DNA of 64,000 nucleotides from assembly GCF_009707865.1 (NCBI RefSeq), contig NZ_WMBA01000014.1, positions 62,001 through 126,000 of the forward strand, written 5' to 3'. The position numbers and the translations under genes are program-made. Of this stretch, positions 39,655 to 63,584 are shown piece by piece (the stretch's first letter is position 1; each line of letters begins with the position of its first letter). Under the pieces are notes generated by a model. It was not told where the DNA came from and searched no databases. It was given only the letters and a program-made list of their open reading frames with translations. This DNA comes from Amycolatopsis pithecellobii (GTDB taxonomy: Bacteria; Actinomycetota; Actinomycetes; Mycobacteriales; Pseudonocardiaceae).

Positions 39655-39685
39655 CGTGGTGTCGCTCCTCGGGTCGATAGGAAAG

Positions 39686-47029: not shown

Positions 47030-47069
47030 GCGTCTTCCATAACCTCAGGGACAGGAGTTTCCCTTCAGC

Positions 47070-48626
47070 ATGTACACGCAGGATTCCGTTCGTCGACCGC
47101 TCAATACAGTGGACTTCTTGGTCAATGCGCTCAACCAGAATTCGTCCCGTCCGCTGCTGCATCTCTCGGACGGTGAGACATTGACCGTCGGACAGACGCG
47201 GGACTCGACTTCCCAGTATGTCCAGGCGCTGACCGGCCTCGGCGTCGGCGAGGGCACGCGGGTCGCGCTGGTCTCCAGCAACCTGCCGGAGGTGCTGCAC
47301 GCGGCTCATGCCACTCAGATCGTGGGTGGGGTCTACATTCCCTTGCATCCCATGGGGTCACGGTCCGACCACTTGAACATCGTGGGTGACGCCGAGGTCG
47401 AATGGCTGATCTTCGAGGGCGGGGCCTACGATGCGCGCGCGGCCGAGCTTGCCGCAGCGGTACCGGGCCTGAAGTTGGTCGCGCTCGGGTGGACGGAACT
47501 GGCCGAAGATCTTCGAAGCCTGGCGGGCTCGATGCGACCGCAGCCGCTGAAGGCACCGATGCTGGATCCCGCCGGCATCGAGCGAATCTCGTACTCCGGC
47601 GGAACGACGGGCAAGCCCAAGAGCATGGCATCTCGCCGCGCAACCAGCGCGGCGCTCTGGAGCATCATGCTGGCGGAGTGGGAATGGCCCCGAACGCCGC
47701 GCGTCCTGTCCTGCGCGCCGCTCAGTCACGCGGGCGGCACGATGTTCCTGCCGACGCTACTGAAGTACGGCACGATCCTGATCCACCCGGGATTCGACCC
47801 GCTGGCGGTCCTGCAGGCGATCCAGGACTACCAGATCAACTGCATGATGCTGGTGCCCACCATGATCTATGCGCTGCTGGACCATCCCCGCTTCGAGGAA
47901 TTCGATCTTTCGAGCCTGGAGACGATCTTCTACGGCGCCTCCGCGATGTCACCGGTCCGGCTTAAGGAAGCCATCGAGCGGATCGGTCCCGTGTTCTTCC
48001 AGTTCTACGGCCAGGCCGAAGCCCCGATGACCGTCACGGTGCTTCGGAAGGCGGAGCATGATGTCAACAATCTCGAACGGCTGAGCAGTTGCGGCCGTCC
48101 GGTGCCTTGGCTGCTGGTCGAACTCCTCGATTCCGAAAACCGCCCGGTGCCGGAGGGCGAGCCCGGGGAGATCTGCGTCCGGGGACCGATCGTCATGGAC
48201 GGTTACCGCGACAATCCGGAACTGAACGCCGAAGTGTTCAGTGGTGGCTGGCTGCACACGGGCGACGTGGCGATCCGCGACGCCGACGGTTTCCTGCGCA
48301 TCGTGGATCGCAAGAAGGACATGATCGTTTCCGGAGGCTTCAACATTTATCCTCGCGAGATCGAGGACACGCTGGCGCTCCACCCCGCGGTCGCTCAGTC
48401 CGCGGTCATCGGCGTGCCACATCCGAAATGGGGTGAGGCGGTCAAGGCTCTGGTGGTGCTGAAGCCGGGGCAGACCGCCACGGCCGAAGAACTCATCGCT
48501 CTGGTGGCCGAACGAAAAGGACGCTTCCAGGCGCCCAAAGGGGTGGAGTTCATCTCCGCGATCCCCAACACCGCCGTCGGCAAGCCGGACAAGAAGGCCC
48601 TACGGGCCAGGCATGGATCCCTTTGA
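47070..48626 (+). CDS. AMP-dependent acyl-CoA synthetase
   Basis: A 518-residue adenylate-forming ligase. The P-loop is ISYSGGTTGKPKSMAS, with FYGQAEAPMTVT at A5, WLHTGDVAIRDADGFLRIVDRKKDMIVSGGFNIYPREIEDTL and the A10 lysine NTAVGKPDKKALR. The substrate-binding segment is distinct from that of the ligase at 12890. It begins 40 bases after the MFS stop. It overlaps the next gene's putative upstream frame but the real next start is 48641. Expected role: activation of the imported acid. Confidence 0.88.
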   Translation: MYTQDSVRRPLNTVDFLVNALNQNSSRPLLHLSDGETLTVGQTRDSTSQYVQALTGLGVGEGTRVALVSSNLPEVLHAAHATQIVGGVYIPLHPMGSRSDHLNIVGDAEVEWLIFEGGAYDARAAELAAAVPGLKLVALGWTELAEDLRSLAGSMRPQPLKAPMLDPAGIERISYSGGTTGKPKSMASRRATSAALWSIMLAEWEWPRTPRVLSCAPLSHAGGTMFLPTLLKYGTILIHPGFDPLAVLQAIQDYQINCMMLVPTMIYALLDHPRFEEFDLSSLETIFYGASAMSPVRLKEAIERIGPVFFQFYGQAEAPMTVTVLRKAEHDVNNLERLSSCGRPVPWLLVELLDSENRPVPEGEPGEICVRGPIVMDGYRDNPELNAEVFSGGWLHTGDVAIRDADGFLRIVDRKKDMIVSGGFNIYPREIEDTLALHPAVAQSAVIGVPHPKWGEAVKALVVLKPGQTATAEELIALVAERKGRFQAPKGVEFISAIPNTAVGKPDKKALRARHGSL

Positions 48627-48640
48627 AACAGGAGCAATAC

Positions 48641-49183
48641 ATGAACAGAATGACCCTTGTCGACAAGATTCCGGACGAAGTACTGGAACCAGCGCTTCAA
48701 ACGAACCTGGGGCGCGCCCTGTACCACAACCCGAAGCTCTGTGTCGCGTTCAAGGCGCTTGCTTCAGGAGTGCACTTCGAATCGCACCTCGAGCCGCGTT
48801 TGCGTGAGCTGGCCATCCTGCGCATCAGCGCCGAACTTCGGTCGGATGTCGAATGGGGGCAGCACTTCCGGATCGCGACGACGGCGGCGGTCTACGGAAA
48901 GGTCAACGTCTCCATCGCGGAGGCGCGCGACGTACGCGACGGCCGGCTCGAAGGTTTCGCGGCGCGGGAGAGGTGCGCGATGGAATACGCCATGGCTTTC
49001 GAAAATAATTCCGTGGACGACGAAATATGGGCTCGCGTCTCGGCGCATTTCACCCCGGTCGAGGTGCTCGACCTCACCGTACTCGCCGGCCTCTACGGAA
49101 TGGCGGGCAGGCTCACCAACGCGCTTGCCGTACCGATGGACGAGGGAATTCTGCCGATCTCGGCAGTCGACTCGCCGGCGTGA
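48641..49183 (+). CDS. Carboxymuconolactone decarboxylase (CMD) family protein
   Basis: About 180 residues of the CMD/AhpD fold. The conserved helix is RLRELAILRISAELRSDVEWGQHFRIA, with EWxxH as in CMD, and IAEARDVRDGRLEGFAARERCAMEYAMAF follows. The CXXC pair of AhpD peroxidases is absent, so a decarboxylase, dehydratase or isomerase role is more likely than peroxidase. The start at 48641 has CAGGAGC seven bases upstream. It lies between the acyl-CoA synthetase and an epoxide hydrolase-like gene, 17 bases before the latter. Confidence 0.83.
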   Translation: MNRMTLVDKIPDEVLEPALQTNLGRALYHNPKLCVAFKALASGVHFESHLEPRLRELAILRISAELRSDVEWGQHFRIATTAAVYGKVNVSIAEARDVRDGRLEGFAARERCAMEYAMAFENNSVDDEIWARVSAHFTPVEVLDLTVLAGLYGMAGRLTNALAVPMDEGILPISAVDSPA

Positions 49184-49200
49184 TCAAAAGGAAAAGGACA

Positions 49201-50370
49201 ATGAAGATCGACCCATTCAGGGTTCATGTTCCGGATAGTGAGATCGACGCGCTTCGCTCCCGCCTGGCCCACACACGCTGGGCGCCCGAGCTTGACAACG
49301 AGGACTGGTCCTACGGAGTCAACGGCACCTACCTGCGTGAATTGATGGCCTATTGGCAGGACGACTTCGACTGGCGTGCGCAGGAGGCGCGGATCAACGA
49401 GTTCCCGCAGTTCCGCACCGAGATCGACGGAGTGCCGATTCATTTTCTCCAGGTGCGCGGCAAAGGGCCCGACCCCGTTCCCATCGTGCTCAACCACGGA
49501 TGGCCCTGGACGTTCTGGGACTTCAAGGACGTCATCATGGCGCTCGCCGATCCTGCCGCACATGGCGGCGATCCCGGGGACGCCTTTGACGTCATCGTCC
49601 CCTCGCTGCCGGGCTTCACCTTCTCCGGGCCGTTGCCCAGGAACGGCATCGGCTATGTCGAAACAGCCGCTCTGTGGGTAAAGCTGATGCGGGAACTCGG
49701 CTACGAGCGGTTCGTCACGCACGGCGGCGACGCGGGCGCGTTCGTGAGCGCACGGCTTGGACACGCGCATCCGGAATCGATGATCGGCGTCCATCTGAGC
49801 TTCCCGATTCTGCCCGGGGTATCCCATGATGCCTTCGACCCCGCCGATCTCACTCCGGAAGAGCGGGCCATCATCGCGGGCCAGGAAAGGGGCCCGGGGG
49901 CGTTCAACCATGTGTTGATCAATGCCTTCGACCCGCAGACTCTCGCCTGGGCGCTGCATGACAGTCCCGTGGGGCAGGCAGCGTGGCTACTGCAGCGCCG
50001 CCGAGCGTGGAGCGATTGCCACGGAGACGTGGAGACCAAGTTCGACAAGGACACGCTCCTCACGCATTTTTCGCTGTACTGGTTCACCAACAGTTTTGCC
50101 GGGTCGGAACTGTTCTGCCAAGCGTCACGGTTCCACCTGCCCATGAGCCTGGCCAACGACGTCAAGCCCGAAATCAGCGTGCCGACCGCCGTTGCCGCGC
50201 TCCCCAAGGATCTGATGTACCGGCCGCGCTCGCTGGTCGCCGCACACAGCGATCTGCGCCAGTGGACCCTGTTCCCCAGCGGAGGCCATTTCGCGGCCGC
50301 CGAAGAACCGGAACTGATCACCGAAGACATCCGCTCGTTCGTGCGCCCCTTGCGGGGCCAGCATGGCTGA
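49201..50370 (+). CDS. Epoxide hydrolase N-terminal domain protein (alpha/beta hydrolase)
   Basis: A 389-residue microsomal-epoxide-hydrolase-like enzyme with the N-terminal EHN domain (DSEIDALRSRLAHTRWAPE, WRAQEARINEFPQFRTEIDGVPIHFLQV) and the alpha/beta core. The oxyanion loop is HGWP (99-102) and the nucleophile elbow THGGDAGAF has Asp177. Most relatives have GGDWGG there; the Trp-Gly pair is replaced by Ala-Gly. The catalytic His is in PSGGHFAAAEEPE. Whether epoxide or lactone is the substrate is unknown. AAAAGGAAAAGGACA precedes the ATG. The gene overlaps the OB-fold gene by eight bases. Confidence 0.86.
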   Translation: MKIDPFRVHVPDSEIDALRSRLAHTRWAPELDNEDWSYGVNGTYLRELMAYWQDDFDWRAQEARINEFPQFRTEIDGVPIHFLQVRGKGPDPVPIVLNHGWPWTFWDFKDVIMALADPAAHGGDPGDAFDVIVPSLPGFTFSGPLPRNGIGYVETAALWVKLMRELGYERFVTHGGDAGAFVSARLGHAHPESMIGVHLSFPILPGVSHDAFDPADLTPEERAIIAGQERGPGAFNHVLINAFDPQTLAWALHDSPVGQAAWLLQRRRAWSDCHGDVETKFDKDTLLTHFSLYWFTNSFAGSELFCQASRFHLPMSLANDVKPEISVPTAVAALPKDLMYRPRSLVAAHSDLRQWTLFPSGGHFAAAEEPELITEDIRSFVRPLRGQHG

Positions 50371-50770
50371 ACGATTCATTCCCGAACCGACGCCCGAGAC
50401 ACAGACTTTCTGGGACAAAGCGCGACTTGGCGAGCTATGGCTGCCCAAGTGCGTTCAGACGGGCCGGGTGTTCTTTCCCCCGCGCGCCTCGTCGCCCTTC
50501 ACCGGCGGCCCGGTTTCCTGGGAAAGGGCGAGCGGCCGGGCCAGTTTGGCGTCCTATGTCATCGTCCATCGCCCCGCCCCCGGATTCGAGGAAGGGCCAT
50601 ACATCGTCGCGATCGTGGCACTCGAGGAGGGGCCGCACATGCTCACGAATCTGCCCGGCACCTCGCCCGAACCGGCCGGACTCCCCATCGGCGCGCCACT
50701 GGAGCTGACCTTCGAGCAGCGGGGAGATGTCGCCATCCCGCAGTTCCGCCTGGTGGGGAGCCGGATATGA
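50363..50770 (+). CDS. Zn-ribbon/OB-fold (DUF35-type) protein, thiolase partner
   Basis: A 135-residue DUF35-type protein. The N-terminal rubredoxin-like ribbon (LPKCVQTGRVFFPPRASSPFTGGPVSWERASG) retains a single Cys, so zinc is probably not bound as in typical members. The OB fold contains LASYVIVHRPAPGFEEGPYIVAIVALEEGPHMLTNLPG. It overlaps the following thiolase-like gene by four bases. Such pairs occur in steroid and benzylsuccinate catabolism (ChsH2 domain with Ltp2, BbsA with BbsB), where the OB-fold protein completes a retro-aldol or thiolytic enzyme. Confidence 0.82.
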   Translation: MAERFIPEPTPETQTFWDKARLGELWLPKCVQTGRVFFPPRASSPFTGGPVSWERASGRASLASYVIVHRPAPGFEEGPYIVAIVALEEGPHMLTNLPGTSPEPAGLPIGAPLELTFEQRGDVAIPQFRLVGSRI

Positions 50771-51909
50771 GCGGCGGTGGGCAGGACGTCGTCATCGTCG
50801 GCGCGCAGGAGTCGTCGCGCCTGGGGACCGTCCCCGATATGACGGCCATGTCGCTGGCCTGCGAGTCCGCTGTCCTGGCGCTCGCCGACGCGGGCCTTTC
50901 CGCCGCCGACGCGGACGGCGTCGCGGCGGTGCTTCCGCCTACCGACGTCGCCTTCATGCTGGGCGTGCGTCCGCGCTGGCTGGATGGCACCAACGTGGGC
51001 GGCTGCTCCTACCTGCTTCAGGTCAGGCATGCCGCGGCGGCGCTCAGGACGGGCCAGGCGAATGTCGTCGTCGTTGCCCACGGCGAGTCGGGCCGGTCGC
51101 GCCTCGGGCCGCCCTACGTCATGGACCCCACGAGCCCGGGAACGCAGTTCGAAATGCCCTATGGGGTGGTCGGGACCTATTCGCGCTTCACGCTGCCGGT
51201 CGTGGCTTATCTTCACAAGCACGGGCTCAAGCCCGAGGACCTGGCCGAGGTGCCCGTAGCGCAGTCGCGTTGGGCGAACCGCAATCCACGCGCGTTCCGG
51301 CCGGAGTTGCTGACCGTCGAGGACGTGCTGGCCTCGCCGCTCATCGCCTGGCCGTTCCATCGCCTTCACTGCTGTCCCGTCAACGACGGCGGCGCGGCGC
51401 TCGTGCTCACCACCCGGGAGCGCGCGGCGGACATGGACCTGAAACACCGTCCCGTGACAGTGCTGGGCTCAGGCGAAAGCGGTGAAGGGCCGGGCGCCAT
51501 CTTCATGGAGGATCTCACCACTTTTCGCGCCTTCCGGGAGGCGTCCAGGGAAGCGATGCGGACAGCACAGATCACCCATGAGACTGTCGATCATCTGATG
51601 ATCTACGACGCCTTCGCCCATCTGCCGCTCTACGGCCTGGAGGACATGGGCTTCGTCAAGCCGGGCGAAGCCGTGGATTTCATCAGGAGCGGGGCGACGA
51701 TCCCCGGCGGAAAACTGCCGCTCAACACCAATGGCGGTGGCCTGCTTTATGCGCATACCGGCATGTACGGCATGTTCGCCCTCCAAGAGGGAGTCCGGCA
51801 ATTGCGCGGAACCGCGCCGGCACAGGTCCATGGCGCGAGGACAAGCCTCGTGCTGGGCGTCGGCGGCATGTTCAGCGCGGCGGGCGCCGTGGTGCTCGGC
51901 GCGGACTGA
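50767..51909 (+). CDS. Thiolase-like protein (Ltp2/SCP-x thiolase domain type)
   Basis: A 380-residue thiolase-fold protein of the lipid-transfer-associated group. VVIVGAQESSRLG, TNVGGCSYLLQVRHAAAALRTGQANVVVVAHGESG, PFHRLHCCPVNDGGAALVLTTRERA, IYDAFAHLPLYGLEDMGFVKPGEAVDF and LPLNTNGGGLLYAHTG are characteristic. The CxSG nucleophile of degradative thiolases is not seen at its usual place, and the HP signature near the C-terminus is replaced by GLLYAHTG, as in Ltp2-like aldolases. I infer a retro-aldol or thiolytic cleavage with the OB-fold partner. ATGA overlap at 50767. Confidence 0.84.
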   Translation: MSGGGQDVVIVGAQESSRLGTVPDMTAMSLACESAVLALADAGLSAADADGVAAVLPPTDVAFMLGVRPRWLDGTNVGGCSYLLQVRHAAAALRTGQANVVVVAHGESGRSRLGPPYVMDPTSPGTQFEMPYGVVGTYSRFTLPVVAYLHKHGLKPEDLAEVPVAQSRWANRNPRAFRPELLTVEDVLASPLIAWPFHRLHCCPVNDGGAALVLTTRERAADMDLKHRPVTVLGSGESGEGPGAIFMEDLTTFRAFREASREAMRTAQITHETVDHLMIYDAFAHLPLYGLEDMGFVKPGEAVDFIRSGATIPGGKLPLNTNGGGLLYAHTGMYGMFALQEGVRQLRGTAPAQVHGARTSLVLGVGGMFSAAGAVVLGAD

Positions 51910-51954
51910 ACCGAACGCGGAATCTCTGTCATCGACCGAACGGGGAACACCTCC

Positions 51955-52800
51955 ATGAGAACAGGAACAAGCGAACGGCCGGACCTGCCCGTTGCCGTGG
52001 TGATCGGGGCAGGCGGCATGGGCATGTCGATCGCCCGGCGGCTCGGCAATCACTACCGGGTCCTGCTCGTGGACCTCAACGCCGAGCGGGTCGCGGAGCG
52101 GGCCGCCGCCATGCGTGACGATGGATACGACGCGCGGAGCCACCAGTGCGACATCACCGACTCCGCTTCCGTCGACCGCCTCGCCGAGACCGTCGCCGAA
52201 ACCGGTCCGTGCCGCGCGGTCGCCCATGTCGCGGCCATGTCGCCGAGCATGGGGTCGTGGCGGGAAATTCTGACGCTCAACCTGATCGGCGCGGCGTATG
52301 TGGAACGCGCACTGCTCCCCCGTGCGCAACCGGCCACCGCGGCGGTGTTCGTCTCCTCCGTCGCCGCCCACCTGATAGGCGACCCCGGCGCGGAGGCCAT
52401 GGCCGTGCTGGACGATCCGCTCGCGCCCGGCTTCCTCGAGGCTCTGGAAAATCTCGTGGCCGAGCACACACCGGCAATGGCCTATTCGCTGGCCAAGTTG
52501 GCCCTCAATCGGATGTGCGAGCGACGCGCCTGGGCCTGGGGCCAACGCGGCGCGAGGATCGTATCGATGTCTCCGGGAATGATCGCCACCCCGATGGGCG
52601 CGCTGGAATTCACCGGAGAGGGCCGCGACTCGAAACTGAAGTTGCTCGAGCGCACCCCGCTGGGACGGGAAGGCACCATGGTCGAAACGGCGGACGCCAT
52701 CGAATTTCTGGTGTCCAGCCGCGCGTCTTTCATTACGGGCACAGACCTTCTGGTCGACGGCGGGGTCAGGGCCGCGATTCGCCCTTCGCGGGAAACCTGA
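51955..52800 (+). CDS. SDR-family oxidoreductase
   Basis: A 281-residue short-chain dehydrogenase. GAGGMGMSIARRLG is the cofactor loop, which in place of GxxxGxG has a GxGGMG arrangement, followed by VDLNAERV (Asp favouring NAD). The catalytic YSLAK has Tyr177 and Lys181, and the C-terminal TGTDLLVDGG is typical. A Ser in VFVSSVAAHLIG completes the triad. A 15-20 residue insert around LDDPLAPGFLEALENLVAEH is like 3alpha-hydroxysteroid dehydrogenase types. It follows the thiolase-like gene by 45 bases, last in the PucR operon before a 270-bp gap. Confidence 0.85.
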   Translation: MRTGTSERPDLPVAVVIGAGGMGMSIARRLGNHYRVLLVDLNAERVAERAAAMRDDGYDARSHQCDITDSASVDRLAETVAETGPCRAVAHVAAMSPSMGSWREILTLNLIGAAYVERALLPRAQPATAAVFVSSVAAHLIGDPGAEAMAVLDDPLAPGFLEALENLVAEHTPAMAYSLAKLALNRMCERRAWAWGQRGARIVSMSPGMIATPMGALEFTGEGRDSKLKLLERTPLGREGTMVETADAIEFLVSSRASFITGTDLLVDGGVRAAIRPSRET

Positions 52801-53073
52801 TTCCTCCCGGACCTACCTGGCATGAAGACCTGCTAGGTCGTGGTTCATAAGCGGCGGAGCCGCTTGCTGTGGGCCGTCAACTGGCACGCTGCTGCCGAAT
52901 TCTCAGGTGGTTCCTCGCGAGGACAGCGCCGACGTGGTGTATCGGCATACATGAGGAGGCGATCCCGGAGCGAGGGGCCGCCTGAGGTTCCGCTACCCGC
53001 ACCGCTACGCAAACCACGTTCGAAACAGTCTCTAGAACCGTCTTAGCCGGTTCCGCGATGGCCAGGAGGTCTC

Positions 53074-54249
53074 ATGCCCCGTCTCACCAGCGACGTGCAA
53101 GCATTCGAAGCCCACGCAACTGACGCTGACCTCGACGATCTGCGCGCGCGACTGGCCGCGGCGCGGCTACCGGAGGCCGAGACGGTCTATCGCGCCGCGC
53201 CCGACCCTCGCCGATGGGCACAGGGCGTTCCTCTCGCCGACCTCGTCGACGTCGTGAACTACTGGCGCACCGGGTACGACTGGCGGTCGTTCGAAGAGCG
53301 CCTCAACCGTATCGGCCAGTTCCGCACGACCATTGATGATCTGGGAATCCACTTCCTGCACCGCCGGTCCGCGCGCGCAGATGCCACTCCGCTGATCTTG
53401 ACGCACGGCTGGCCAGGCAGCATTGCCGAGTTCATCGATGTAGTGGACGAGCTGGCAGATCCGGAAGACGCGGACGCGCCGGCGTTCCACGTCGTGGTCC
53501 CGTCGCTGCCAGGCTTTGGTTACAGCGACAAGCCGGCCACCACCGGGTGGGGAACCGAAAAGATCGCGGCCGCATGGGTGGAACTGATGGGGAGGCTCGG
53601 CTACCGCAAGTTCGCCGCCCACGGCGGCGACTGGGGAGGCAATATCACCACGGTTCTCGGCGGCAGGTTCCCGGCGCACGTTCTCGGCATCCACACCACG
53701 TTCGCGGAGGGACCGCCCGGGTTGACAACGGACGGGCTGACGGCCCTCGAGCGTGAGTGGACCGAGGAGACCCGCGACTTCTACGAGGGCCCCCACGGGG
53801 CGTACGCGAAACAGCAGGCGACCCGACCGCAGACCATCGGCTACTCGCTCGTCGACTCACCGGTCGGGCTTCTTGCCTGGATCCTCGACAAGTTCGCCGA
53901 ATGGTCAGACACCGAAGACAGCCCGTTCGAGACGATTTCCCGAGATCGCGTTCTTGACGACGTCACCCTGTATTGGCTGACGCGGACCGGCGCATCGTCG
54001 GCCCGCATTTACTACGAAAGCCACAACTCGCTGGACCCGGAACTTCGGGTCGACGTTCCCTCGGCAATCACTACGTATCCCCGCGACATCGAGAAGTGTC
54101 CGCGCCCCTGGGCACAGGAGCGATACCGGCAAATCGTCCGATGGCACTCGCCGGAAACCGGCGGCCATTTCCCGTCGCTGGAGATTCCCGGGTATTTCGT
54201 CAAAGACCTGCAAGAAGGCCTCGCGGCAGTGCTGGCTACTCATCGGTGA
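53074..54249 (+). CDS. Epoxide hydrolase with N-terminal EHN domain
   Basis: A 391-residue enzyme homologous to that at 49201, but canonical: EHN domain (DADLDDLRARLAAARLP, YWRTGYDWRSFEERLNRIGQFRTTIDDLGIHFLH), HGWPGS (111-116), nucleophile elbow AAHGGDWGGN with Asp186 and catalytic His in TGGHFPSLE. It hydrolyses epoxides to diols via an alkyl-enzyme ester. The ATG at 53074 has CAGGAGG upstream. It is separated from the SDR by 273 bp with no gene recognised, and it converges with the FAD monooxygenase gene, 17 bases away. Confidence 0.88.
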   Translation: MPRLTSDVQAFEAHATDADLDDLRARLAAARLPEAETVYRAAPDPRRWAQGVPLADLVDVVNYWRTGYDWRSFEERLNRIGQFRTTIDDLGIHFLHRRSARADATPLILTHGWPGSIAEFIDVVDELADPEDADAPAFHVVVPSLPGFGYSDKPATTGWGTEKIAAAWVELMGRLGYRKFAAHGGDWGGNITTVLGGRFPAHVLGIHTTFAEGPPGLTTDGLTALEREWTEETRDFYEGPHGAYAKQQATRPQTIGYSLVDSPVGLLAWILDKFAEWSDTEDSPFETISRDRVLDDVTLYWLTRTGASSARIYYESHNSLDPELRVDVPSAITTYPRDIEKCPRPWAQERYRQIVRWHSPETGGHFPSLEIPGYFVKDLQEGLAAVLATHR

Positions 54250-54266: not shown

Positions 54267-56171
54267 TCAGGGACTCTTCACCCCTGAGAGAGTGCGCAGT
54301 ATTTCCCTGGCCATAGTGGCGTTCTCGCCGAACGCGACGCCCACCGGCCTGACGAACAGACTCGGTGTCCTCGCGCTGGTATACGGGCCGAGGGCGAACC
54401 GGCGTGGGTGGGGAATACCGGTCCTGCCGACGATTCGATGCGTGGGAGTGGTCAGCACCCTTCCCGTCGGAGCGGCGCCGTCCCCCAGGGTTTCCTCCGT
54501 AACCTCACCGCGTGCGTGGAGTGCACGAAGCAACGGACTGGCCGTGCGGGTCAGATCCGGTACCGGCAGTCTGGCCTCGACGAGACAGCTCGCGACGACC
54601 ACTGTGGGGTGACTTTCGCCACCGGCCAAGAATTGTCTGCGCCGCTCGTCCGTCCGGACCCACATTCCCGGCCCCAGGAAGGAGACCACGCCGGCACGGG
54701 AAAGCGCTATCAGCTCACTAACCCGGCTCGGCGGTGGCCCCGAGGTGAAATAGTTGCTGAATCCCGACCACCATCCGTCGATGTCGTGGATCTGCGAGCC
54801 GGCGGCCATCCTGCCGGTCGCCACCAGCCGCGCGAGCATGTGCCCTGCCGACCGGACCGCGTTGACGGCGCCGAGTTCCGCGCTGAACGCGGTGTCCGTG
54901 CGTCGGCGCAGGATCTCGTGCAAATGCTCCTGCAGGTGGTCGGTGAACTCGGCCGCGCCGGTGAACCGCAGGCTCCCCAGCGGGCGGTCGGCGACAGCCA
55001 GATCGAGCCGGTCGGCCACCGCAGGCACGGCCCGTGCCTCCAGCTCACTCAGCTCGTCACCAGTGCCACTCACCGCATAGTGGTGGGCGAATTCGGCAAA
55101 GCCCATTCGGACACGCTCCGGGTGGCCGGTGAACAGTTCGTGGTAATAGCCCCAGCCGATCTCCTTCGCCACCAGCGGCCACACGTCGGCCCGGAAGTCG
55201 AGCGGCTTCGCCGCCGCGGCCAGCCGGCTGACCTCTCCCGGCCCGAAGAATCTCGGCAGGATCGCGGGCTTTCCCTGCAGTCGGTAGCCAGGCTTCGGCA
55301 GGTGTGGAACGCCTCGCCGGGAACCCACATAGAGCTTGGGCTCGGCACCCGACGGCCGGTACACCAGCCGGTCACCCTCCTCGCTGAACACTCCACCCCG
55401 TTCTTCTGTCAACAGCACCATGAGGTCCGTGGCTGCCAGCCCGAAACCACGCACCAGGACTGTCTCTCCCGGCCCGAAACCGGAAAAGTCCAGATCGGCG
55501 GTGTAGCCGGGCGGGAGGTAGGTCAAGTCATGCCGGGCCGCGAAATCGAGCAGGTCCCGCTCGTGCGGAGCCGGTCCGGCCTCCAGATGCCCCAGCGTGA
55601 GTACCACCGCATCGACGACGAGCGGGCCGTAGCCGGAATCAAGCCACACCGTTTGTGGCCCGTCCGTGCCGCCGGTGACATCGACGGCCGAGGCGGCATG
55701 TATGTGGACATCGACGCCACGGGGCACATTGTTCAGGGTCTCATTGAAATACCAGGTCAGATACGCGCTTTGCAGCCGGCGGGTGGCGAAATGACCCGGA
55801 TCCGTTACATCCAATTCGGGCAATAGTGCAGCATCCACGTCGGCATTCAGTTGTCCCTTCCGTACCGCCTCGACCCATTCCAGCAGACTGAAATCGGCTA
55901 CTGGTGCGTTCGCGCTCGCCATGCCATGCATAGTGACGTCGTATGCGCGCGAGTTCATCCGGAGCAACGGAGATTGCGCCTTTCGCCACACCCTGCCGGG
56001 GCCCGGCGGAAAGGGGTCCACGAAATGGACGGTGAGCGGCCGTCCGTTCAGTATTTCGGTCGCGTTCGCGCCGATCCGGTTGAGCACGCCCGTCCCGCGA
56101 GGGCCCGCACCCACGATCGCCATGGACACGCGAGCGGGATCGTTTGATGGCAGAGCGAGGTGGCCGCGCAT
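54267..56171 (-). CDS. FAD/NAD(P)-binding monooxygenase-like protein (CreE/FzmM-like candidate)
   Basis: A 634-residue flavoprotein of the FAD_NAD_binding_9 family. GAGPRG (21-26) is the dinucleotide loop, then PLTVHFVDPFPPGPGRVWR and LLRMNSRAYDVTMHG, and a second nucleotide site at LVRGFGLAATDLMVLL. This family includes enzymes that oxidise an amino group, including those forming nitrosuccinate from aspartate (CreE, FzmM). ATG at 56171 follows AAAGGAAAG. It is divergent from a fumarase-superfamily lyase, as CreE and CreD are functionally paired in nitrite-forming clusters. The assignment to that reaction is inferred, not shown; another amine or amino acid is possible. Confidence 0.62.
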   Translation of the reverse strand: MRGHLALPSNDPARVSMAIVGAGPRGTGVLNRIGANATEILNGRPLTVHFVDPFPPGPGRVWRKAQSPLLRMNSRAYDVTMHGMASANAPVADFSLLEWVEAVRKGQLNADVDAALLPELDVTDPGHFATRRLQSAYLTWYFNETLNNVPRGVDVHIHAASAVDVTGGTDGPQTVWLDSGYGPLVVDAVVLTLGHLEAGPAPHERDLLDFAARHDLTYLPPGYTADLDFSGFGPGETVLVRGFGLAATDLMVLLTEERGGVFSEEGDRLVYRPSGAEPKLYVGSRRGVPHLPKPGYRLQGKPAILPRFFGPGEVSRLAAAAKPLDFRADVWPLVAKEIGWGYYHELFTGHPERVRMGFAEFAHHYAVSGTGDELSELEARAVPAVADRLDLAVADRPLGSLRFTGAAEFTDHLQEHLHEILRRRTDTAFSAELGAVNAVRSAGHMLARLVATGRMAAGSQIHDIDGWWSGFSNYFTSGPPPSRVSELIALSRAGVVSFLGPGMWVRTDERRRQFLAGGESHPTVVVASCLVEARLPVPDLTRTASPLLRALHARGEVTEETLGDGAAPTGRVLTTPTHRIVGRTGIPHPRRFALGPYTSARTPSLFVRPVGVAFGENATMAREILRTLSGVKSP

Positions 56172-56384
56172 GCTTTCCTTTTTCGTGACGCTGGACCGGC
56201 GCGAGGACCTCGAACCGGCAGAACACCCCACGAGGGTGGCGGAGTTTTTTGGTTACCAGTGGGTACGAAGCCTCGGGTCGACAATGAGTGCCCATTCGAC
56301 TTCACCTCATGCGCAAACCATGTTCCGCCACGCCCGCGCTGATTAGCATTCTGGTGTTGATGTTCGGGAAAGAGGGGATCGGCA

Positions 56385-57791
56385 ATGGAGTTCGACGCCC
56401 CGGCGGCGTGCAGGCATGAGCGGAGCCACATCACCGATTCGATTTTCCACGGTCATTCTTATGCGACCGCGGCGAGCAAACGGATCTTCTGCGATGTCTG
56501 CCGTTACCAGCGTTGGCTGGACGTCGAAGCGGCGCTCGCCATGACCCAGGGTGAACTCGGAATTCTGCCGGCCAAGGCCGCCAAGGACATCGAGGCGTCC
56601 GCACGGGTGGAATTACTGGACCTCGACGCCGTCCGCGAGGACGCCCTCCGCTCCGGCCACTCCCTCATCGGGCTGCTTCGCGCCTTGCGGCGCGTCACTC
56701 CGGACGATTCGGGTGAATACCTGCACTACGGCGCAACCACCCAGGACATCCAAGATACCGCTCAGTCTCTGGAGATCCGTGATGTTCTCGACGAACTCGA
56801 CCAGCTTCTGCGGTCGATCGTCACGTCTCTGGTCCGGCTCGCCGAACGACACGGTGACGCGCTGTCCCTCGGCCGGACCCACGCGCAACCCGCGCTGCCG
56901 ATGGGGTTCGGGGTCAAACTGGCGGGCTGGATCGACGAGATCCTGCGCCATGCCGAGCGGGTCGCGACGATGCGCCCCCGGGTGCTGACCGTGCAGATGT
57001 TCGGCGCGGTCGGCACGATGGCGGGTTTCGGCGAGCACGGCCCGGCGGTGCTGAGTGGGTGCGCCGCGCGACTCGGCCTTGGCGTCCCGGCTTCCAGTTG
57101 GCACACCGCCCGGGATCGCGTCGCCGAGTACGTCTCGACCCTCGCGATGATCGCCGCCACCCTGGCCCGGATCGCCGACGAGATCCGGCTCTTGTCCCGG
57201 CCCGAATTCGCCGAGGTCGAAGAAGCCTGGCAGCACGGCGAAATCGGCAGCAGCACCATGCCGCACAAACGCAATCCCGAACGGTGCGAGCAGGTCGTCG
57301 CACTCGCACGGCTGTGCGCGGGGCTGGTCGCCCCGGCCCTGATGGCCATGACCGGCGACGGCGAGCGCGATGCCCGTGCGCTACGTGTCGAATGGGCGTG
57401 CGTAGCGGACGCCGCTCATTATTGCCTGGCTGCCGCGACACTCACGGCGGGTGTCCTCGACGGGCTCCGGGTCGACACCCACAGGCTGGCCGCCAACGTC
57501 CGCCGTGCCGGCGACCAGTTGGCCACCGAACGGCTGATGCTCGCCCTGGCACGCAAGCTGGGCAGGCAAACCGCATACGAACGGGTGTACGACCTCGTGC
57601 AGCGCGCCCACGCCGACGGCCGCTCCGTTCGCGCACAGCTTGCCGACGACCCCACCCTGGCCGGTCTGCTCGATCCCGTCGAACTCGATCACGTCTTCGA
57701 CCCCATGAGCCACCTCGGCAGGTCCCCGCAGCTCACCCGGCGGGCCGTCGAGGCAGCGACGTCCTGGCTGCAAAAGACCTCCCCGTGGTGA
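56385..57791 (+). CDS. Fumarase/aspartase-superfamily lyase (adenylosuccinate-lyase-like; CreD-type candidate)
   Basis: A 468-residue lyase of the aspartase/fumarase superfamily, tetrameric with shared active sites. Signature segments are HYGATTQD (114-121), the His166 region GRTHAQPALPMGFG and the flexible loop EIGSSTMPHKRNP (288-298), whose Ser is the usual base. These enzymes release fumarate from succinyl groups. CreD and FzmL of the nitrosuccinate pathway, as well as adenylosuccinate lyase, iminodisuccinate lyase and argininosuccinate lyase, belong here. The start has GAGGGG eight bases upstream. It overlaps the MFS gene by four bases. The true substrate is unresolved. Confidence 0.78.
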   Translation: MEFDAPAACRHERSHITDSIFHGHSYATAASKRIFCDVCRYQRWLDVEAALAMTQGELGILPAKAAKDIEASARVELLDLDAVREDALRSGHSLIGLLRALRRVTPDDSGEYLHYGATTQDIQDTAQSLEIRDVLDELDQLLRSIVTSLVRLAERHGDALSLGRTHAQPALPMGFGVKLAGWIDEILRHAERVATMRPRVLTVQMFGAVGTMAGFGEHGPAVLSGCAARLGLGVPASSWHTARDRVAEYVSTLAMIAATLARIADEIRLLSRPEFAEVEEAWQHGEIGSSTMPHKRNPERCEQVVALARLCAGLVAPALMAMTGDGERDARALRVEWACVADAAHYCLAAATLTAGVLDGLRVDTHRLAANVRRAGDQLATERLMLALARKLGRQTAYERVYDLVQRAHADGRSVRAQLADDPTLAGLLDPVELDHVFDPMSHLGRSPQLTRRAVEAATSWLQKTSPW

Positions 57792-59023
57792 CGCCGGCCG
57801 ACGAGACCGGACTTGTCAAACGGTTCACCTCGTTCGACCGAAACGTCCGGCTGCTCCTGGTCAACCAGTTCACCATCAATGCCGCGTTCTACATGCTCAT
57901 GCCATACCTGGCGGTATATCTCTCCGGCACGGTCGCGCTGGCAAGCTGGGGAGTCGGGCTCGTCCTGGGATTGCGCAACTTCAGCCAGCAGGGCATGTAC
58001 CTGGTCGGCGGCACGATCACCGACCGCTTTGGCTACCGCGCGCCGATCATCGCCGGGTGTGCACTGCGTGTCCTGGGCTTCGCCCTCTTAGGCGTCGTCA
58101 CCAGCCTTCCGGCGCTGATCATCGCCTCGGCGGCCACCGGCTTCGCCGGTGCACTGTTCCTCCCCGCGGTCCGGATCGGGCTGGCGGAGGCGGCGGGGCC
58201 GCGCCGGCTGGAGGCGTTTGCCCTGTCGAATGTGTGCAACCGCACCGGGATCCTGGTCGGACCGCTGATCGGGCTCGCACTGACCGGGATCGACTTCCGG
58301 CTCACCTGCCTGGTGTCGGCTTCGGTATTCGCGATCCTGACGGCGGTTCAGATCCGTGCCCTGCCCGTTCAGCAGACCTCGCGGCAAGGCGGCCACCTCC
58401 TTCACGACCTGCGTGAGGTGCTGGGGAATCGCAGGCTCATCCGGTTCGCACTCGTGATGACCGGCGTATACGTCCTGTCTTTCCAGATCTACCTGGCGCT
58501 GCCGCTGGAGACGACGCACCGTGCGGGCGGCACGGTCATGATCACCGTGCTGTTCGCGACCACCGGCGTCATGGCGATCGTCGGCCAACTCCGGCTGGTC
58601 CGCTTCTGCCGGCGACATCTCGGCGAGGTTCGCTCCCTCGCGGTCGGAGCGTTGATACTTGCCCTGGCGTTTCTGCCGTTGGCCCTACCGGTCGGTTCGA
58701 CGAGTCCGTGGCGGTTCGCCCCGCTGCTCGCTTCCGCGGTACTGCTGGGACTGGGCACGATGGTGGCGTTCCCGTTCGAAATGGACGCCGTGGTGGCACT
58801 GGCCGACGACAGGCTGGTCGCGACACACTACGGCTTGTCCAGCACGATCACGGGAGTCGGGATTCTGGCCGGGAACCTGTTCACCGGGACGATCCTGAAT
58901 CTCGCCTGGTCCGCGCGAATGTCCGCGGTGCCGTGGCTCGGCCTCACACTGCTGGGCCTGATCTGTACGCTCGGCATGGGCAATTTCCGGTCGATCCGTC
59001 AACGGGAAAAGACCAGTAGCTGA
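57788..59023 (+). CDS. MFS transporter (drug/metabolite efflux-like)
   Basis: About 411 residues and 11-12 predicted helices. The N-terminus LLLVNQFTINAAFYMLMPYLAVYLSG and GGTITDRFGYRAPIIAG (loop 2-3), RTGILVGPLIG and C-terminal LGLTLLGLICTLGMGNF match MFS transporters of the DHA1-like kind. Such transporters usually export. Start is GTG at 57788 (GTGA overlap with the lyase stop) or the preceding GTG at 57785. It may export a small nitrogen compound or its product, or import an amino-dicarboxylate; direction cannot be read from sequence. Confidence 0.84.
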   Translation: MTPADETGLVKRFTSFDRNVRLLLVNQFTINAAFYMLMPYLAVYLSGTVALASWGVGLVLGLRNFSQQGMYLVGGTITDRFGYRAPIIAGCALRVLGFALLGVVTSLPALIIASAATGFAGALFLPAVRIGLAEAAGPRRLEAFALSNVCNRTGILVGPLIGLALTGIDFRLTCLVSASVFAILTAVQIRALPVQQTSRQGGHLLHDLREVLGNRRLIRFALVMTGVYVLSFQIYLALPLETTHRAGGTVMITVLFATTGVMAIVGQLRLVRFCRRHLGEVRSLAVGALILALAFLPLALPVGSTSPWRFAPLLASAVLLGLGTMVAFPFEMDAVVALADDRLVATHYGLSSTITGVGILAGNLFTGTILNLAWSARMSAVPWLGLTLLGLICTLGMGNFRSIRQREKTSS

Positions 59024-59025
59024 GT

Positions 59026-59059
59026 GCCCTCAGGCCGGAACGCGGTCCTGCCTGAGGGC
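59026..59059. terminator. Hairpin between convergent MFS and MmgE/PrpD genes
   Basis: GCCCTCAGGC and GCCTGAGGGC form a perfect 10-bp stem around 14 bases. It overlaps the 3' end of the MmgE/PrpD gene and lies just after the MFS stop. It probably acts on the plus-strand transcript and perhaps both. Confidence 0.65.
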
Positions 59060-60373
59060 CGTGAGCAACGCCGCCAGGTCGCCACCGGCGTCCAGACCAC
59101 GGATCAGCGCCGGAATGCCGGTCAGTTCGGGGGCGTGGCCGGTGAGTTCGGCGAATTTCGTGGATTGATCGACCGATACGGAGAACGTCTGCTCCCGGTT
59201 GCGCCGCTGTGCGTGCACCTGCCCGTCGGCGAACTTCAGCGTGACCTCGGCGAACCGGTCGCCGGGCCGCTCATGGTCCGGCGGCACGCTGTTATCCGGC
59301 GAGCGGCGGACTTTGGTCGCAAGGGCGGCGATACGGCCATCGACCGGTCCTTCGCCAAACCGGGTCAGGTGCAGTGAACCGTCGATCAACGCGGCGGCGA
59401 TGACGTATTCCAGGCTGAACCGCGCCTCGACGCCGGTGGCCGGGTTCCGAATGGCCGGCGCGGTATCCGCACCGGGCGGGAACGACACCACGATCTCGGC
59501 GATATCGTCGACCGTGCGCGGTGGCAGCCCACTATGCAGTGCCAGCGCAGCTTCCGCTGCCTGGTGTGTACCGCCGCAGGTGGGAAAGCGTTTGAACACC
59601 AGGCCGGGAGCGACAATGCGCCAGGTCTTGCCCCAGCCGTCGAGCAGCCGCGACGGATCTTGTGCGTCGAAGCCGAACACGGCGAAGAATCCGGTCTGCG
59701 AGTCGAGCACGTCGGTGTTTCCGTCAAGACCGGCAGCGCTGAATTCCGCTGCCTGCAGGCCCGCACGCGCGGCGAGCCCCGCATGCAAGGGTTTGACTTG
59801 CGAACCGAACTGTGCCCGCAGGCCTGCGGCCTGTGTCGCGGCGATACCCAGAGCCACCGTGGTCCGCCCTGGTGTGAGACCGCGTAGCCGTGCGACGGCG
59901 GCCGACGCCGCGATCGTGCCGAGTGTGGAGGTCGAGTGGCAACCCCGCGGATAATGGCGCGTTCCGGTGGCGTTACCCAGTCTCGCCGCAACCTCCACGC
60001 CGACGATGTAAGCGTCCAGGAAGGCGTTCGCTTCCGTGCTTTCCGTTGCAACGCCCAGCAGGGCAGGCAGGATGACCGAACTGGGGTGACCGCGCATGTC
60101 GGTGTGGTAGTCGTCGAAGTCCAATGCGTGGCCGAGATACCCGTTGATCACCGCGGCATCGGCCGGCCGCGCACCCGCGGCCGAACCGACGACTACCGAA
60201 GGTCCACCGTCGTCCGCGCCGAGAGCGTGCCGGACGGCGGTCACGCCCGAGTCCGCCGCGCCACCGAGCGCAACGGCGATGAAGTCGAGCAACCCCGCGC
60301 GTGCGGCCTGTCGTGCGGCACCATCCGGTCGCACCGACGTGATCGCGCGTGCCAACTCGGTGTCCGTGCTCAC
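59030..60373 (-). CDS. MmgE/PrpD family protein
   Basis: A 447-residue member of the MmgE/PrpD superfamily, which contains 2-methylcitrate dehydratase, cis-aconitate decarboxylase and iminodisuccinate epimerase. Pocket residues follow the family pattern: GHALDFDDYH (acidic pair), MRGHPSSVILPALLG (His), YPRGCHSTSTLGTIAASAAVARLRG (His) and FGSQVKPLHAGLAARAG (Lys and His). The GTG at 60373 has AGGGGAG six bases upstream. The neighbouring lyase and D-amino-acid-oxidase-like gene make iminodisuccinate epimerase-type chemistry on an amino-dicarboxylate attractive, though the family has several activities. Confidence 0.84.
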   Translation of the reverse strand: MSTDTELARAITSVRPDGAARQAARAGLLDFIAVALGGAADSGVTAVRHALGADDGGPSVVVGSAAGARPADAAVINGYLGHALDFDDYHTDMRGHPSSVILPALLGVATESTEANAFLDAYIVGVEVAARLGNATGTRHYPRGCHSTSTLGTIAASAAVARLRGLTPGRTTVALGIAATQAAGLRAQFGSQVKPLHAGLAARAGLQAAEFSAAGLDGNTDVLDSQTGFFAVFGFDAQDPSRLLDGWGKTWRIVAPGLVFKRFPTCGGTHQAAEAALALHSGLPPRTVDDIAEIVVSFPPGADTAPAIRNPATGVEARFSLEYVIAAALIDGSLHLTRFGEGPVDGRIAALATKVRRSPDNSVPPDHERPGDRFAEVTLKFADGQVHAQRRNREQTFSVSVDQSTKFAELTGHAPELTGIPALIRGLDAGGDLAALLTALRQDRVPA

Positions 60374-60437
60374 TTGTGCTCCCCTGGTGCGTCGATGGAT
60401 CCTCCTGCGAATGCAGCCACGCCCCACCCGAAGCTGG

Positions 60438-61526
60438 TCAGGCAACGAGCCCAGTAAGGAGGTCGACCGCCTCCTCGGCGCACCCCCAGGAAAAGGTGAA
60501 TCCGGAGCCGCCGTGGCCGGTGTTGTGGACGATCCTGGTGCCCGGCTCGCATTCCAGCCGGACGTTGCGCTGCCGGTACGGTCGCAGCCCGACACGCACC
60601 GGGTTACCCTCGACCAGCCGCAGATCGCGCAGGACCGGCAGGAATTCCTGGCATCGGCGCAGCATCGCGGCGATCGGCGGATAGGACGCCATTGTCAGGT
60701 CTGTTGACCATTCGCCTGCCTCGACCAGACCGCCCAGCACCAGCCGATCGTGGCCGCGCGGCACGATGAAGACCATGTTCTGCCCCTCCACTGCCTCGTC
60801 GAACGAAAGGCAGTGCGCCTCGGTCACCCTGTGGTCGCGGTAGGCGTGAACCACCGCGCCCCGTAACGGGGTCATGTCGTCGTCGGCGAGCTCAACAGAG
60901 CCGAGCCCGGAGCAGTTCACGATCGCCGTGGCCCCGTAAGCCTCGCGCAGCTGGGTTTCCTGGTCCGCCAGACGCCCGGAGACGCGCCCGGGGCGCACCA
61001 CGCACCCCGCGTCGAGCACCGCATCCATCAGCCATTCCAGGTACTTGTCGGTGTCCACCATCGGCGCCAGATGGCAGTAGGCGTCGACCACGCCCGCGTC
61101 GGTCGAGACTCCGTTCTCCTTGATCAGCCTTTCGTCGTGGCGGAAGTCTTCGACTCGTTCACGCAGCTCGGTCATCTTGCGGTACTCGTCCGGGTCGTGC
61201 TCGACCGGCGTCCGGAAGTAGAAGTTCGCCGTACGCAGGTGCACTCCGGTGGCCGGATCGTCCGCCATCTGGCGGAACACGTCGTACGAACGGGCCGCCC
61301 AGTCTTTCGACCGCGCGAGCGAAACCTGGTCACGATGCTGCCCGCACACCGCGGGCGGCCACTCCCACAACGCCCCTGCCACGTTCGACGTGACATGCGG
61401 CGCGAATCTGTCGGCGAGCACGATCACGTCATAGCCTCTCCTCCTGGCGCAGAGTGCCGTGGTCAGCCCGATGACGCCTGCCCCGACGATGAGTACTCGA
61501 GCGGATCCAGCTGAGTACGCGCGCAT
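60438..61526 (-). CDS. D-amino-acid oxidase family FAD enzyme (D-aspartate oxidase-like possibility)
   Basis: A 362-residue DAO-family flavoenzyme oxidising a D-amino acid to the 2-oxo acid, ammonia and peroxide. FAD loop VLIVGAGVIGLTTALCARRRG, then GAVVHAYRDHRV and VFIVPRGHDRLVLGGLVEAG (family signature), RVGLRPYRQRNVRLE with the carboxylate-binding Arg, and IVHNTGHGGSGFTFSWGCAEE. A second Arg in the pocket would indicate D-aspartate; this cannot be judged here. It begins the leftward unit with MmgE/PrpD (64-bp gap). D-aspartate oxidation would fit a pathway that produces D-aspartate from iminodisuccinate. Confidence 0.84.
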   Translation of the reverse strand: MRAYSAGSARVLIVGAGVIGLTTALCARRRGYDVIVLADRFAPHVTSNVAGALWEWPPAVCGQHRDQVSLARSKDWAARSYDVFRQMADDPATGVHLRTANFYFRTPVEHDPDEYRKMTELRERVEDFRHDERLIKENGVSTDAGVVDAYCHLAPMVDTDKYLEWLMDAVLDAGCVVRPGRVSGRLADQETQLREAYGATAIVNCSGLGSVELADDDMTPLRGAVVHAYRDHRVTEAHCLSFDEAVEGQNMVFIVPRGHDRLVLGGLVEAGEWSTDLTMASYPPIAAMLRRCQEFLPVLRDLRLVEGNPVRVGLRPYRQRNVRLECEPGTRIVHNTGHGGSGFTFSWGCAEEAVDLLTGLVA

Positions 61527-61988: not shown

Positions 61989-63584
61989 TCACGACCGTCC
62001 GCGGAGCTCGAACTTCTGAATCTTGCCGGTGGACGTCTTGGGCAGCTCTTCGATGATCTCGACGTCCCGAGGGGCTTTGTAGCGCGCGATCTTCGACTTC
62101 ACGTGCTCGATCAGTTCCTCGGGTGTGGCCTCGCCGCCCGGCGCAAGCACGACGAACGCCTTCGGTCGCTCGCCCCACTTTTCGTCGGGCACGCCGACCA
62201 CCGCGACCTCCAGGACCGCCGGATGGGAGACGACAGCCTGCTCGACCTCGACCGTGGAGATGTTCTCTCCGCCGGAGATGACGATGTCCTTGGCACGGTC
62301 GCGCAGTTCCACGTAGCCGTCGGGGTGCATCACACCCAGGTCGCCGGAGTGGAACCAGCCGCCCTCGAACGCCTTCTCGGTGCCGGCCGGGTCCTTGTAG
62401 TACCCGGTCATCACGTTGTTGCCGCGCATGACGATCTCGCCCATCGTCCGCCCGTCCCGCGGCACGTCACGCATGTCCTTGTCCACCACGCGGAGGCGGT
62501 CGGTCTGCAGCATCCCGACGCCCTGGCGGGCCTGCAGCCGGGCACGCTCCCCGGGGCCGAGTTCGTCCCACGCGCGCTGGTGCTGGTTGACCGAATAGGG
62601 CCCGTAGGTCTCGGTGAGCCCGTAGACGTGCACGATCCGGAAGCCCATTTCCGCCATCTGCAGGATGGTGGTGGGGCTCGGCGGGGCGCCGGCGGTGGTG
62701 ACGACGAGCTGGTAGTCCAGCTTTGCCGCCTGTTCCGCGCGCATGATCGTGGTGACGACGGTGGGTGCGCCGTTGAGGTGGGTGACCCGGTGTTCGGTGA
62801 TCAGCTGCCAGATCCGGTCACCGCGGACCTCGCGCAGGCAGATGTGGGTGCCGCCGATGCCGGTGAGCGCCCACGGGGTGCACCAGCCGTTGCAGTGGAA
62901 CATCGGCAGCGTCCAGAGGTAGACGCTGTCCGGCGTGTGCGCCGAGTGCACGATCTCGCCGAAGGAATTCAGGTACGCGCCACGATGCGAGTACTGCACG
63001 CCCTTGGGCCGGCCGGTGGTGCCGGAGGTGTAGTTGATCGAGATCGTCGAGTCCTCGTCGGCGACCTCCCATGGCAGCGGGTCGTCCGAGCCGCGGGCGA
63101 GCAGGTCGTCGTAGCGCACGCCGGAGCCGGTGCCGTCGCCCGGGTTCGCCGGGTCGATCACCGTGATGATCTCCTCGACGGTCTGCAACTCCCGGGCGAC
63201 GGGCTCGACCTGCGGGTACAGCGCGGCGTCGACCACGAGCACCGTCGCGCCCGAGTGGTCGAGGATGTAGCGGATCTCCTCGGTGGACAGCCGGGTGTTG
63301 ATCGCGACCAGGATCGCCCCGGCCAGCGGCACGGCGAAGTGCGCCACCAGCATCTCGGGCAGGTTGGGCAGCAGGTATGCCACCCTGTCCCCGCGCTCGA
63401 CACCGAATCCGCGCAGACCGTGCGCCACCCGGGTCGCCTCCGCGGCGAACTCCGCATACGTCCAGGTGCGGTCGCCGTAGACGATCGCGGTCTTGTCCGG
63501 ATAGACGTTCGCCGAACGTTCCAGAAAGGCCAAGGGCGTCAGCGGAGTCCGCCCGACGCGGGAAATAGAGGCGTTCATGGTCAT
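61989..63584 (-). CDS. AMP-dependent long-chain fatty-acid-CoA-ligase-like protein
   Basis: A 531-residue acyl-CoA synthetase with INYTSGTTGRPKGVQYSHRG (P-loop), HVYGLTETYGPYSVN (A5), WFHSGDLGVMHPDGYVELRDRAKDIVISGGENIS (A7-A8) and TSTGKIQKFELRGRS with the A10 lysine. It lies closest to the acetyl/acyl-CoA synthetases of the FadK/medium-chain type. Start ATG 63584, or ATG two codons later. It is followed on the right by an amidohydrolase on the same strand, 18 bases away, so both are in one leftward operon. Confidence 0.88.
   Translation of the reverse strand: MTMNASISRVGRTPLTPLAFLERSANVYPDKTAIVYGDRTWTYAEFAAEATRVAHGLRGFGVERGDRVAYLLPNLPEMLVAHFAVPLAGAILVAINTRLSTEEIRYILDHSGATVLVVDAALYPQVEPVARELQTVEEIITVIDPANPGDGTGSGVRYDDLLARGSDDPLPWEVADEDSTISINYTSGTTGRPKGVQYSHRGAYLNSFGEIVHSAHTPDSVYLWTLPMFHCNGWCTPWALTGIGGTHICLREVRGDRIWQLITEHRVTHLNGAPTVVTTIMRAEQAAKLDYQLVVTTAGAPPSPTTILQMAEMGFRIVHVYGLTETYGPYSVNQHQRAWDELGPGERARLQARQGVGMLQTDRLRVVDKDMRDVPRDGRTMGEIVMRGNNVMTGYYKDPAGTEKAFEGGWFHSGDLGVMHPDGYVELRDRAKDIVISGGENISTVEVEQAVVSHPAVLEVAVVGVPDEKWGERPKAFVVLAPGGEATPEELIEHVKSKIARYKAPRDVEIIEELPKTSTGKIQKFELRGRS

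Follow-up and report, generated by a model that had tools for sequence, protein, structure and literature searches.

The five-gene set

The 64,000-nucleotide (nt) stretch of Amycolatopsis pithecellobii DNA analysed here (the window; contig C50 of a 7.9 Mb assembly with 67.5% G+C) carries between positions 54267 and 61526 five genes that we tentatively read as a module for S-succinylcysteine. The Pfam families confirm the five enzyme classes that an initial annotation, made from the sequence alone, had assigned: a flavin adenine dinucleotide (FAD) monooxygenase, a fumarase-type lyase, a major facilitator superfamily (MFS) transporter, an MmgE/PrpD protein and a D-amino-acid oxidase (DAO). The features are as follows.

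54267..56171, minus strand: FAD/NAD(P)-binding monooxygenase, related to CreE and FzmM but outside that group; possible N-oxygenase (PF13454, PDB entry 8cp2, residues, tree)
56172..56384, no strand: intergenic region between the divergent flavoprotein and lyase genes (sequence)
56385..57791, plus strand: fumarase-superfamily lyase of the FlcB-like carbon–sulfur (C-S) lyase clade; proposed reversible cysteine-fumarate lyase (NCBIfam, residues, trees, approximately unbiased (AU) test)
57785..59023, plus strand: MFS transporter, overlapping the lyase gene by 7 nt (Pfam, NCBIfam, homologous loci, plasmid pairs)
59030..60373, minus strand: MmgE/PrpD protein, YxeQ type; proposed epimerase of a succinyl carbon (Pfam, PDB relatives, residues, neighbourhoods)
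60438..61526, minus strand: DAO-family FAD oxidoreductase; possible amino-acid oxidase (PF01266, about 100 bits to mammalian D-amino-acid oxidase (DAAO))

Refinement from the sequence places the start of the flavoprotein probably at 56171 (ATG) and not 56231, and that of the MmgE/PrpD protein at 60373 (GTG) and not 60595. The flavoprotein and lyase genes diverge, 213 nt apart. The MFS gene starts at 57785 (GTG) and the lyase gene stops at 57791, which bears out the overlap noted in the initial annotation. The MFS and MmgE/PrpD genes converge with 6 nt between them, and the DAO and MmgE/PrpD genes are co-directional.

The lyase groups with C-S lyases

The lyase matches the Pfam families Lyase_1 (150.2 bits) and ADSL_C (62.9 bits), and it groups with lyases of C-S bonds, those of the FlcB, XcbD and 2SL-locus types. 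In a tree of 92 rows, from which a second PurB-like row was omitted, its place is in a set of 57 rows (support 96%) opposite a 26-row set (support 99%). The first set holds all 17 FlcB-type and all 7 XcbD-like rows, 10 of the 15 FlcC-labelled rows and two 2SL-like rows; the second holds CreD, CMLE, Tad1 and 3c8t, and five FlcC-labelled rows lie outside both. Within the rows of the AU-test analysis the window lyase, the actinobacterial rows and the FlcB-type rows group together at 100%. As the 2SL reference we used our reading of a plasmid locus from Pantoea with the order lyase, GNAT, amino-acid ABC transporter, amidohydrolase. FlcB converts L-cysteine and fumarate to S-succinyl-L-cysteine, and FlcA is a methyltransferase (PMC11363339); the cleavage of N-acetyl-S-(2-succino)cysteine by 2SL is reversible (PMC9706529).

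The active site agrees with this grouping. The 17-letter active-site string of the window lyase recurs unchanged in 17 of 20 actinobacterial FlcB-like rows, and a Pseudomonas lyase encoded beside a methyltransferase gene deviates from it at position 346 only. Letter order and the methyltransferase neighbour suggest that this window-like Pseudomonas enzyme is FlcB. Its loop reads KRNP and that of the other Pseudomonas lyase KQNP; since PMC13411527 ties KRNP to nitrite-using enzymes and counts PaFlcC among them, the loop speaks for the opposite FlcB/FlcC assignment. Both Pseudomonas lyases act on C-S bonds whichever is FlcB.

The initial annotation had compared the flavoprotein and the lyase with CreE and CreD of the aspartate-nitrosuccinate pathway. 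The window lyase does carry the residues E49/H118/D125/H253/R341 and the loop SSxMPxKRNP that PMC13411527 proposes for nitrite-using lyases. FlcB-like rows carry both as well, however, so that this hydronitration fingerprint does not discriminate; it occurs in lyases outside the nitrosuccinate pathway and is unsafe, on its own, for annotating nitrite-making clusters. At positions 123, 170, 346 and 347 (CreD numbering) the window lyase has T, H, L and R, in contrast to the S, L (M in one), W and H of 12 CreD rows. Its score with the nitrosuccinate-lyase model NF052556 is 241.8 bits against a cut-off of 650, and an AU test on 42 of 87 rows rejects its placement with CreD (p 7.74e-6). Of 296 genomes of the class, 9 have a match above that cut-off, and in 9 of 9 fetched loci the flavoprotein gene immediately precedes the lyase gene in the same orientation, unlike the divergent pair here. 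A housekeeping adenylosuccinate lyase was also considered and rejected; the true PurB lies on contig C99 and exceeds its cut-off at 426.3 bits.

FlcB-like lyases often have a candidate amine-oxidising enzyme in their neighbourhood. An ELFV dehydrogenase is found in 43 of 83 non-window loci, six loci have a class V aminotransferase family, and in Pseudomonas (L088) two haem-oxygenase-like oxidases accompany the lyase; a methyltransferase is present there too. Judging by position, the two FAD enzymes of the window could take the same role. All neighbourhood counts given here refer to loci that were opened or fetched, a subset of all matches, and many lyase loci lie on short contigs.

Other surroundings of these lyases are worth recording. 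A second actinobacterial lyase neighbourhood (L085, L086, L087, L099 and L109) has a class V aminotransferase, a GCS2-type ligase and an amidohydrolase in all five loci. In Desulfobulbaceae-type loci FlcB-like lyases stand beside an ELFV dehydrogenase with a ThiF gene (L104, 7284-12153) or a NicO nickel-transport gene (L121, 7274-12256), and others adjoin ZnuA-type metal-uptake genes (L133, 639-4827, Candidatus Electronema; L139, 9950-12463); a metal-ligand role for the Desulfobulbaceae-type loci is our guess. In L075 (8882-15863) and L155 (1240-5534) FlcB-like lyases lie near PAPS-reductase-type and EF-Tu-type GTPase genes, resembling the sulfate adenylyltransferase CysD/CysN.

The transporter and its usual partner

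The MFS protein matches MFS_1 (92.9 bits), and its nearest NCBIfam model is that of the exporter MdtH (136.8 bits, under the cut-off of 469). Homologues occur at 1e-70 in 117 of 297 genomes of the family. In all 29 fetched non-window loci (one per genome, 58–64% identical) a cysteine-synthase-family gene lies directly upstream of the MFS homologue, the place that the lyase occupies in the window. A putative thiol-fumarate lyase in that place before the same transporter family suggests that this MFS family moves S-substituted cysteines.

Such pairs also occur in a plasmid collection, itself a limited sample, where the two genes overlap by 4 nt in 5 of 5 opened records. Two of the plasmid pairs (L259, L265) are hosted by copper-resistance islands with multicopper oxidase and CopC or CopD genes. 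The pair appears to resemble the mycobacterial cysK2-Rv0849. Both cysK2 and Rv0849 are listed under the copper regulator RicR (PMC10470581), and CysK2 has been linked to S-sulfocysteine (PMC9048740).

A TACC-N4-GGTA repeat at 56254, in the flavoprotein/lyase intergenic region, would arise there by letter shuffling with a chance of about 1.4%. Among the regions upstream of 36 related cysteine-synthase-family/MFS pairs none has it, and the idea of a copper operator was dropped for that reason.

The MmgE/PrpD protein is of the YxeQ type

The MmgE/PrpD protein matches both domains of its family (MmgE_PrpD_N, 174.2 bits; MmgE_PrpD_C, 73.8 bits) and is singular in the taxonomic family, with a match at 1e-65 in 1 of 297 genomes. 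Its best solved relatives are 7bra, B. subtilis 'IRG1' (307 bits), and iminodisuccinate epimerase (202 bits). We call it YxeQ type by its likeness to proteins of yxe loci and not to YxeQ itself. YxeQ is an MmgE/PrpD relative according to a match table in PMC8752978, and in the S-(2-succino)cysteine locus its function is listed as unknown (PMC9706529).

A plasmid search with this protein gave 49 records at E <= 1e-45, ten of which were opened (L252-L256, L258, L302, L304, L306, L311). Nine of the ten relatives lie in loci of the S-(2-succino)cysteine (yxe) type, as judged by counting yxe-locus components, with monooxygenases counted by family; the tenth (37.5% identity, 48th of the 49) does not. 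As a control, the same search with two of the organism's own paralogues returned 2 and 5 plasmid records. Three of these loci were opened and none is yxe-type or has three components, one having a branched-chain ABC transporter and another a luciferase-type gene 4 kb off. Sequence identity follows the same line: six yxe-locus proteins are 46–49% identical to the window protein, 7bra 42.9%, iminodisuccinate epimerase 36.5% and five paralogues from the same organism 27–32%.

The His and Tyr residues whose catalytic roles in iminodisuccinate epimerase are described in PMC7347537 are kept, in keeping with the hint in the initial annotation that this protein might epimerise a succinyl adduct. Both are also found in 7bra and in the yxe-locus proteins, and thus the pair is not specific for iminodisuccinate epimerase. 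One unannotated plasmid record is 39.7% identical to that epimerase.

The two flavin enzymes

The flavoprotein matches NAD_binding_9 (PF13454, 121.5 bits), and its sole PDB relative is the aspartate N-hydroxylase 8cp2 (identified through PMC10404684). At positions 13/62/266/276/409/412/413/416, 8cp2 and all 11 CreE-type proteins compared (L192-L202) have RNRRRRNR. The window flavoprotein retains R13 and N62 as well as the Arg in its C-terminal RP; positions 266 and 276 are K and A, and the 409-416 motif is missing. A 60-row tree puts it together with 47 proteins apart from the CreE group (support 100%); its terminal branch is long, 0.9 where the median is 0.13. A topology that joins it to CreE survives an AU test on 24 rows (p 0.205), and so the case against CreE lies in the residues. 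In the substrate helix of the window flavoprotein an Arg replaces the Leu or Ile of its sisters, within a stretch aligned with a one-residue gap; this window-specific Arg may mark an anionic substrate.

At 1e-60 the flavoprotein has relatives in 171 of the 297 genomes of the family. They form a widespread family (L015-L043, L233-L250), related to aspartate N-hydroxylase and lacking the aspartate chamber, for which we know of no assigned function. The lyase is absent from the 29 fetched sister loci and from 24 wider loci. In 10 of the 24, luciferase-type monooxygenases (clustering with a tested representative) are found, one such locus also having GNAT, rhodanese and ABC permease genes.

The DAO protein matches PF01266 with 141.5 bits and is unique in its genus (1 of 19 genomes at 1e-50). 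In alignment with mammalian DAAO the substrate Arg is kept, and Tyr224 and Tyr228 are replaced by Gln and Phe. DAO-family matches (29–39% identity) occur also in five lyase loci (L074 in part, L078-L080 and L154).

A possible S-succinylcysteine module

The lyase, the MmgE/PrpD protein and the MFS protein, which are of unrelated ancestry, each point by mutually independent tests to an S-substituted cysteine. We consider it possible, though by no means assured, that the module produces S-succinylcysteine and epimerises it, and that either this compound or a product of it is exported. What we observed are the enzyme families, the clade of the lyase, the genomic company of relatives of three genes and the active-site letters; from these we infer every substrate in this scheme, the direction in which it runs, epimerisation, export and everything proposed for the FAD enzymes. 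The lyase, like FlcB and 2SL, would catalyse the reversible addition of L-cysteine, or of a similar thiol, to fumarate. The YxeQ-type protein would act as an epimerase at the succinyl carbon, in the manner of iminodisuccinate epimerase on the substrate of that enzyme, and the MFS protein, whose gene overlaps that of the lyase, would export S-succinylcysteine or its product. The two FAD enzymes may contribute oxidation of the amino group, by DAO deamination and CreE-related N-oxygenation, in the place that FlcE holds in fluopsin C; position is what ties them to the module, and for the flavoprotein this is its divergent adjacency. Epimerisation of the succinyl carbon by YxeQ would fit the stereoselectivity of FlcB and FlcC, reported to be opposite to that of other superfamily members (PMC13411527); the occurrence of a YxeQ-type protein that retains the epimerase residues next to a fumarate lyase of C-S type makes this function of YxeQ testable by a single assay.

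Several findings weigh against this proposal. The complete five-gene set was seen once, in no other genome examined. The flavoprotein is absent from the lyase loci L045-L153, where no lyase relative adjoins it, and none of the ten opened MmgE/PrpD loci, all plasmid-borne and outside Actinomycetota, has a lyase. The lyase exceeds no curated NCBIfam cut-off and its matches include no FlcB or 2SL model; it scores 611.1 bits with PRK08937, an 'adenylosuccinate lyase' subfamily (cut-off 626), and 440.3 bits with the 3-sulfopropionylcysteine synthase XcbD (cut-off 600), and it is 34.4% identical to the lyase of the Pantoea 2SL locus. The cysteine-synthase-family genes upstream of the MFS homologues reach no cysteine-synthase cut-off; one of them scores best with the SbnA family (248, cut-off 350) and has 174 with cysKM (cut-off 344). 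The organism's own second MFS copy (L297, 3473-6417, contig C22, 57%) has no cysteine-synthase gene and is preceded by a divergent luciferase-type monooxygenase gene. Pfam scans of 12 proteins from 45.7-63.6 kb of the window found none of three yxe-locus components: GNAT, amidohydrolase, ABC transporter.

A more specific version of the proposal, which we regard as quite unlikely, is a flavin route to a metal ligand derived from S-succinylcysteine, with YxeQ as S-(2-succino)cysteine epimerase. The lyase would mask the thiol of cysteine with fumarate, the CreE-related N-oxygenase and the DAO-type oxidase would replace the diiron FlcE/FlcD chemistry, the YxeQ-type epimerase would set the stereochemistry for unmasking, and the coupled MFS protein, whose family occurs in copper islands as well, would export the ligand. 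If true, this would also give YxeQ a function.

Comparison with known systems and alternative explanations

As the initial annotation stated, the set matches no known pathway completely. It shares with the fluopsin C cluster flcABCDE of Pseudomonas a lyase in the clade of the one beside the methyltransferase gene. It differs in having FAD enzymes; a second lyase, haem-oxygenase-like oxidases and a methyltransferase were not seen among the scanned neighbours. With the yxe/scm locus of Bacillus and others it has in common a YxeQ-type MmgE/PrpD protein, a lyase of the wider C-S set and a transporter. It departs from that locus in its extra FAD enzymes and in the distance of its lyase from the 2SL-locus enzyme. 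The cysteine-synthase-family/MFS pair has the same MFS family and an overlap with the upstream enzyme gene, which in the window encodes a lyase and not a pyridoxal-phosphate enzyme.

A less likely explanation than the module is salvage or detoxification, in which a lyase-type variant of the yxe (scm) locus would break spontaneously formed S-(2-succino)cysteine, with the MFS protein as importer or safety exporter and another amine step in place of N-acetylation. YxeQ-type proteins do occur in breakdown loci, and 2SL stands in YxeK's place in 27 of 102 yxe loci (PMC9706529). The window lyase lies, however, in the FlcB-like and not the 2SL branch, the MFS protein resembles exporters, and an acetyltransferase, a deacetylase and an ABC importer were not found near the set, among the 12 scanned proteins. 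That the genes stand together by chance, as separate transcription units whose roles are unrelated, we regard as unlikely. Searches through the flavoprotein, lyase, MmgE/PrpD, MFS and DAO proteins (the last in the 19 genomes of the genus) found no conserved five-gene synteny, and a DNA search of plasmids with the whole region gave no record covering 80%, the ten listed rows being MFS matches; the company of the flavoprotein's relatives elsewhere, with luciferase-type monooxygenases, also favours coincidence. The overlap of the lyase and MFS genes, the lyase in a slot otherwise held by a cysteine-synthase-family gene in 29 of 29 homologous loci, and the independent indication of the same metabolite by the MmgE/PrpD protein argue the other way.

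It is improbable that the set acts on carbon–nitrogen bonds, as the initial annotation suggested, the lyase cleaving or forming an N-succinyl amino acid such as iminodisuccinate, the epimerase inverting and the DAO protein oxidising a D-amino acid such as D-aspartate. The shared MmgE/PrpD fold and catalytic His and Tyr of iminodisuccinate epimerase would suit this route, as would the adenylosuccinate-lyase-type His of the lyase at CreD position 170. Against it, the MmgE/PrpD protein is nearer to the yxe-locus proteins than to iminodisuccinate epimerase, and, among the lyase types compared, the partner lyase groups with the C-S set. Formation of nitrite and fumarate by an aspartate-nitrosuccinate pathway, as put forward in the initial annotation, now appears very improbable. 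The two enzyme classes are the same, the published fingerprint and loop are present and a flavoprotein joined to CreE survives the AU test, but the lyase differs from CreD in model score, clade and residues, the aspartate chamber of the flavoprotein is mostly gone, and gene order differs. Homologues of the flavoprotein-lyase pair are, moreover, not syntenic in the loci fetched, an outcome that the initial annotation had named as refuting its proposal.

Surroundings of the set

The flanks (45725-54249 and 61989-63584) encode acyl-CoA synthetases, two epoxide-hydrolase-like proteins, and thiolase-like and SDR proteins, a degradation-type setting. Farther off, the minus strand carries at 38245-42415 an apparently separate series of genes for aldehyde dehydrogenase, a transglutaminase-like protein, luciferase-type monooxygenase and a GntR/UTRA regulator.

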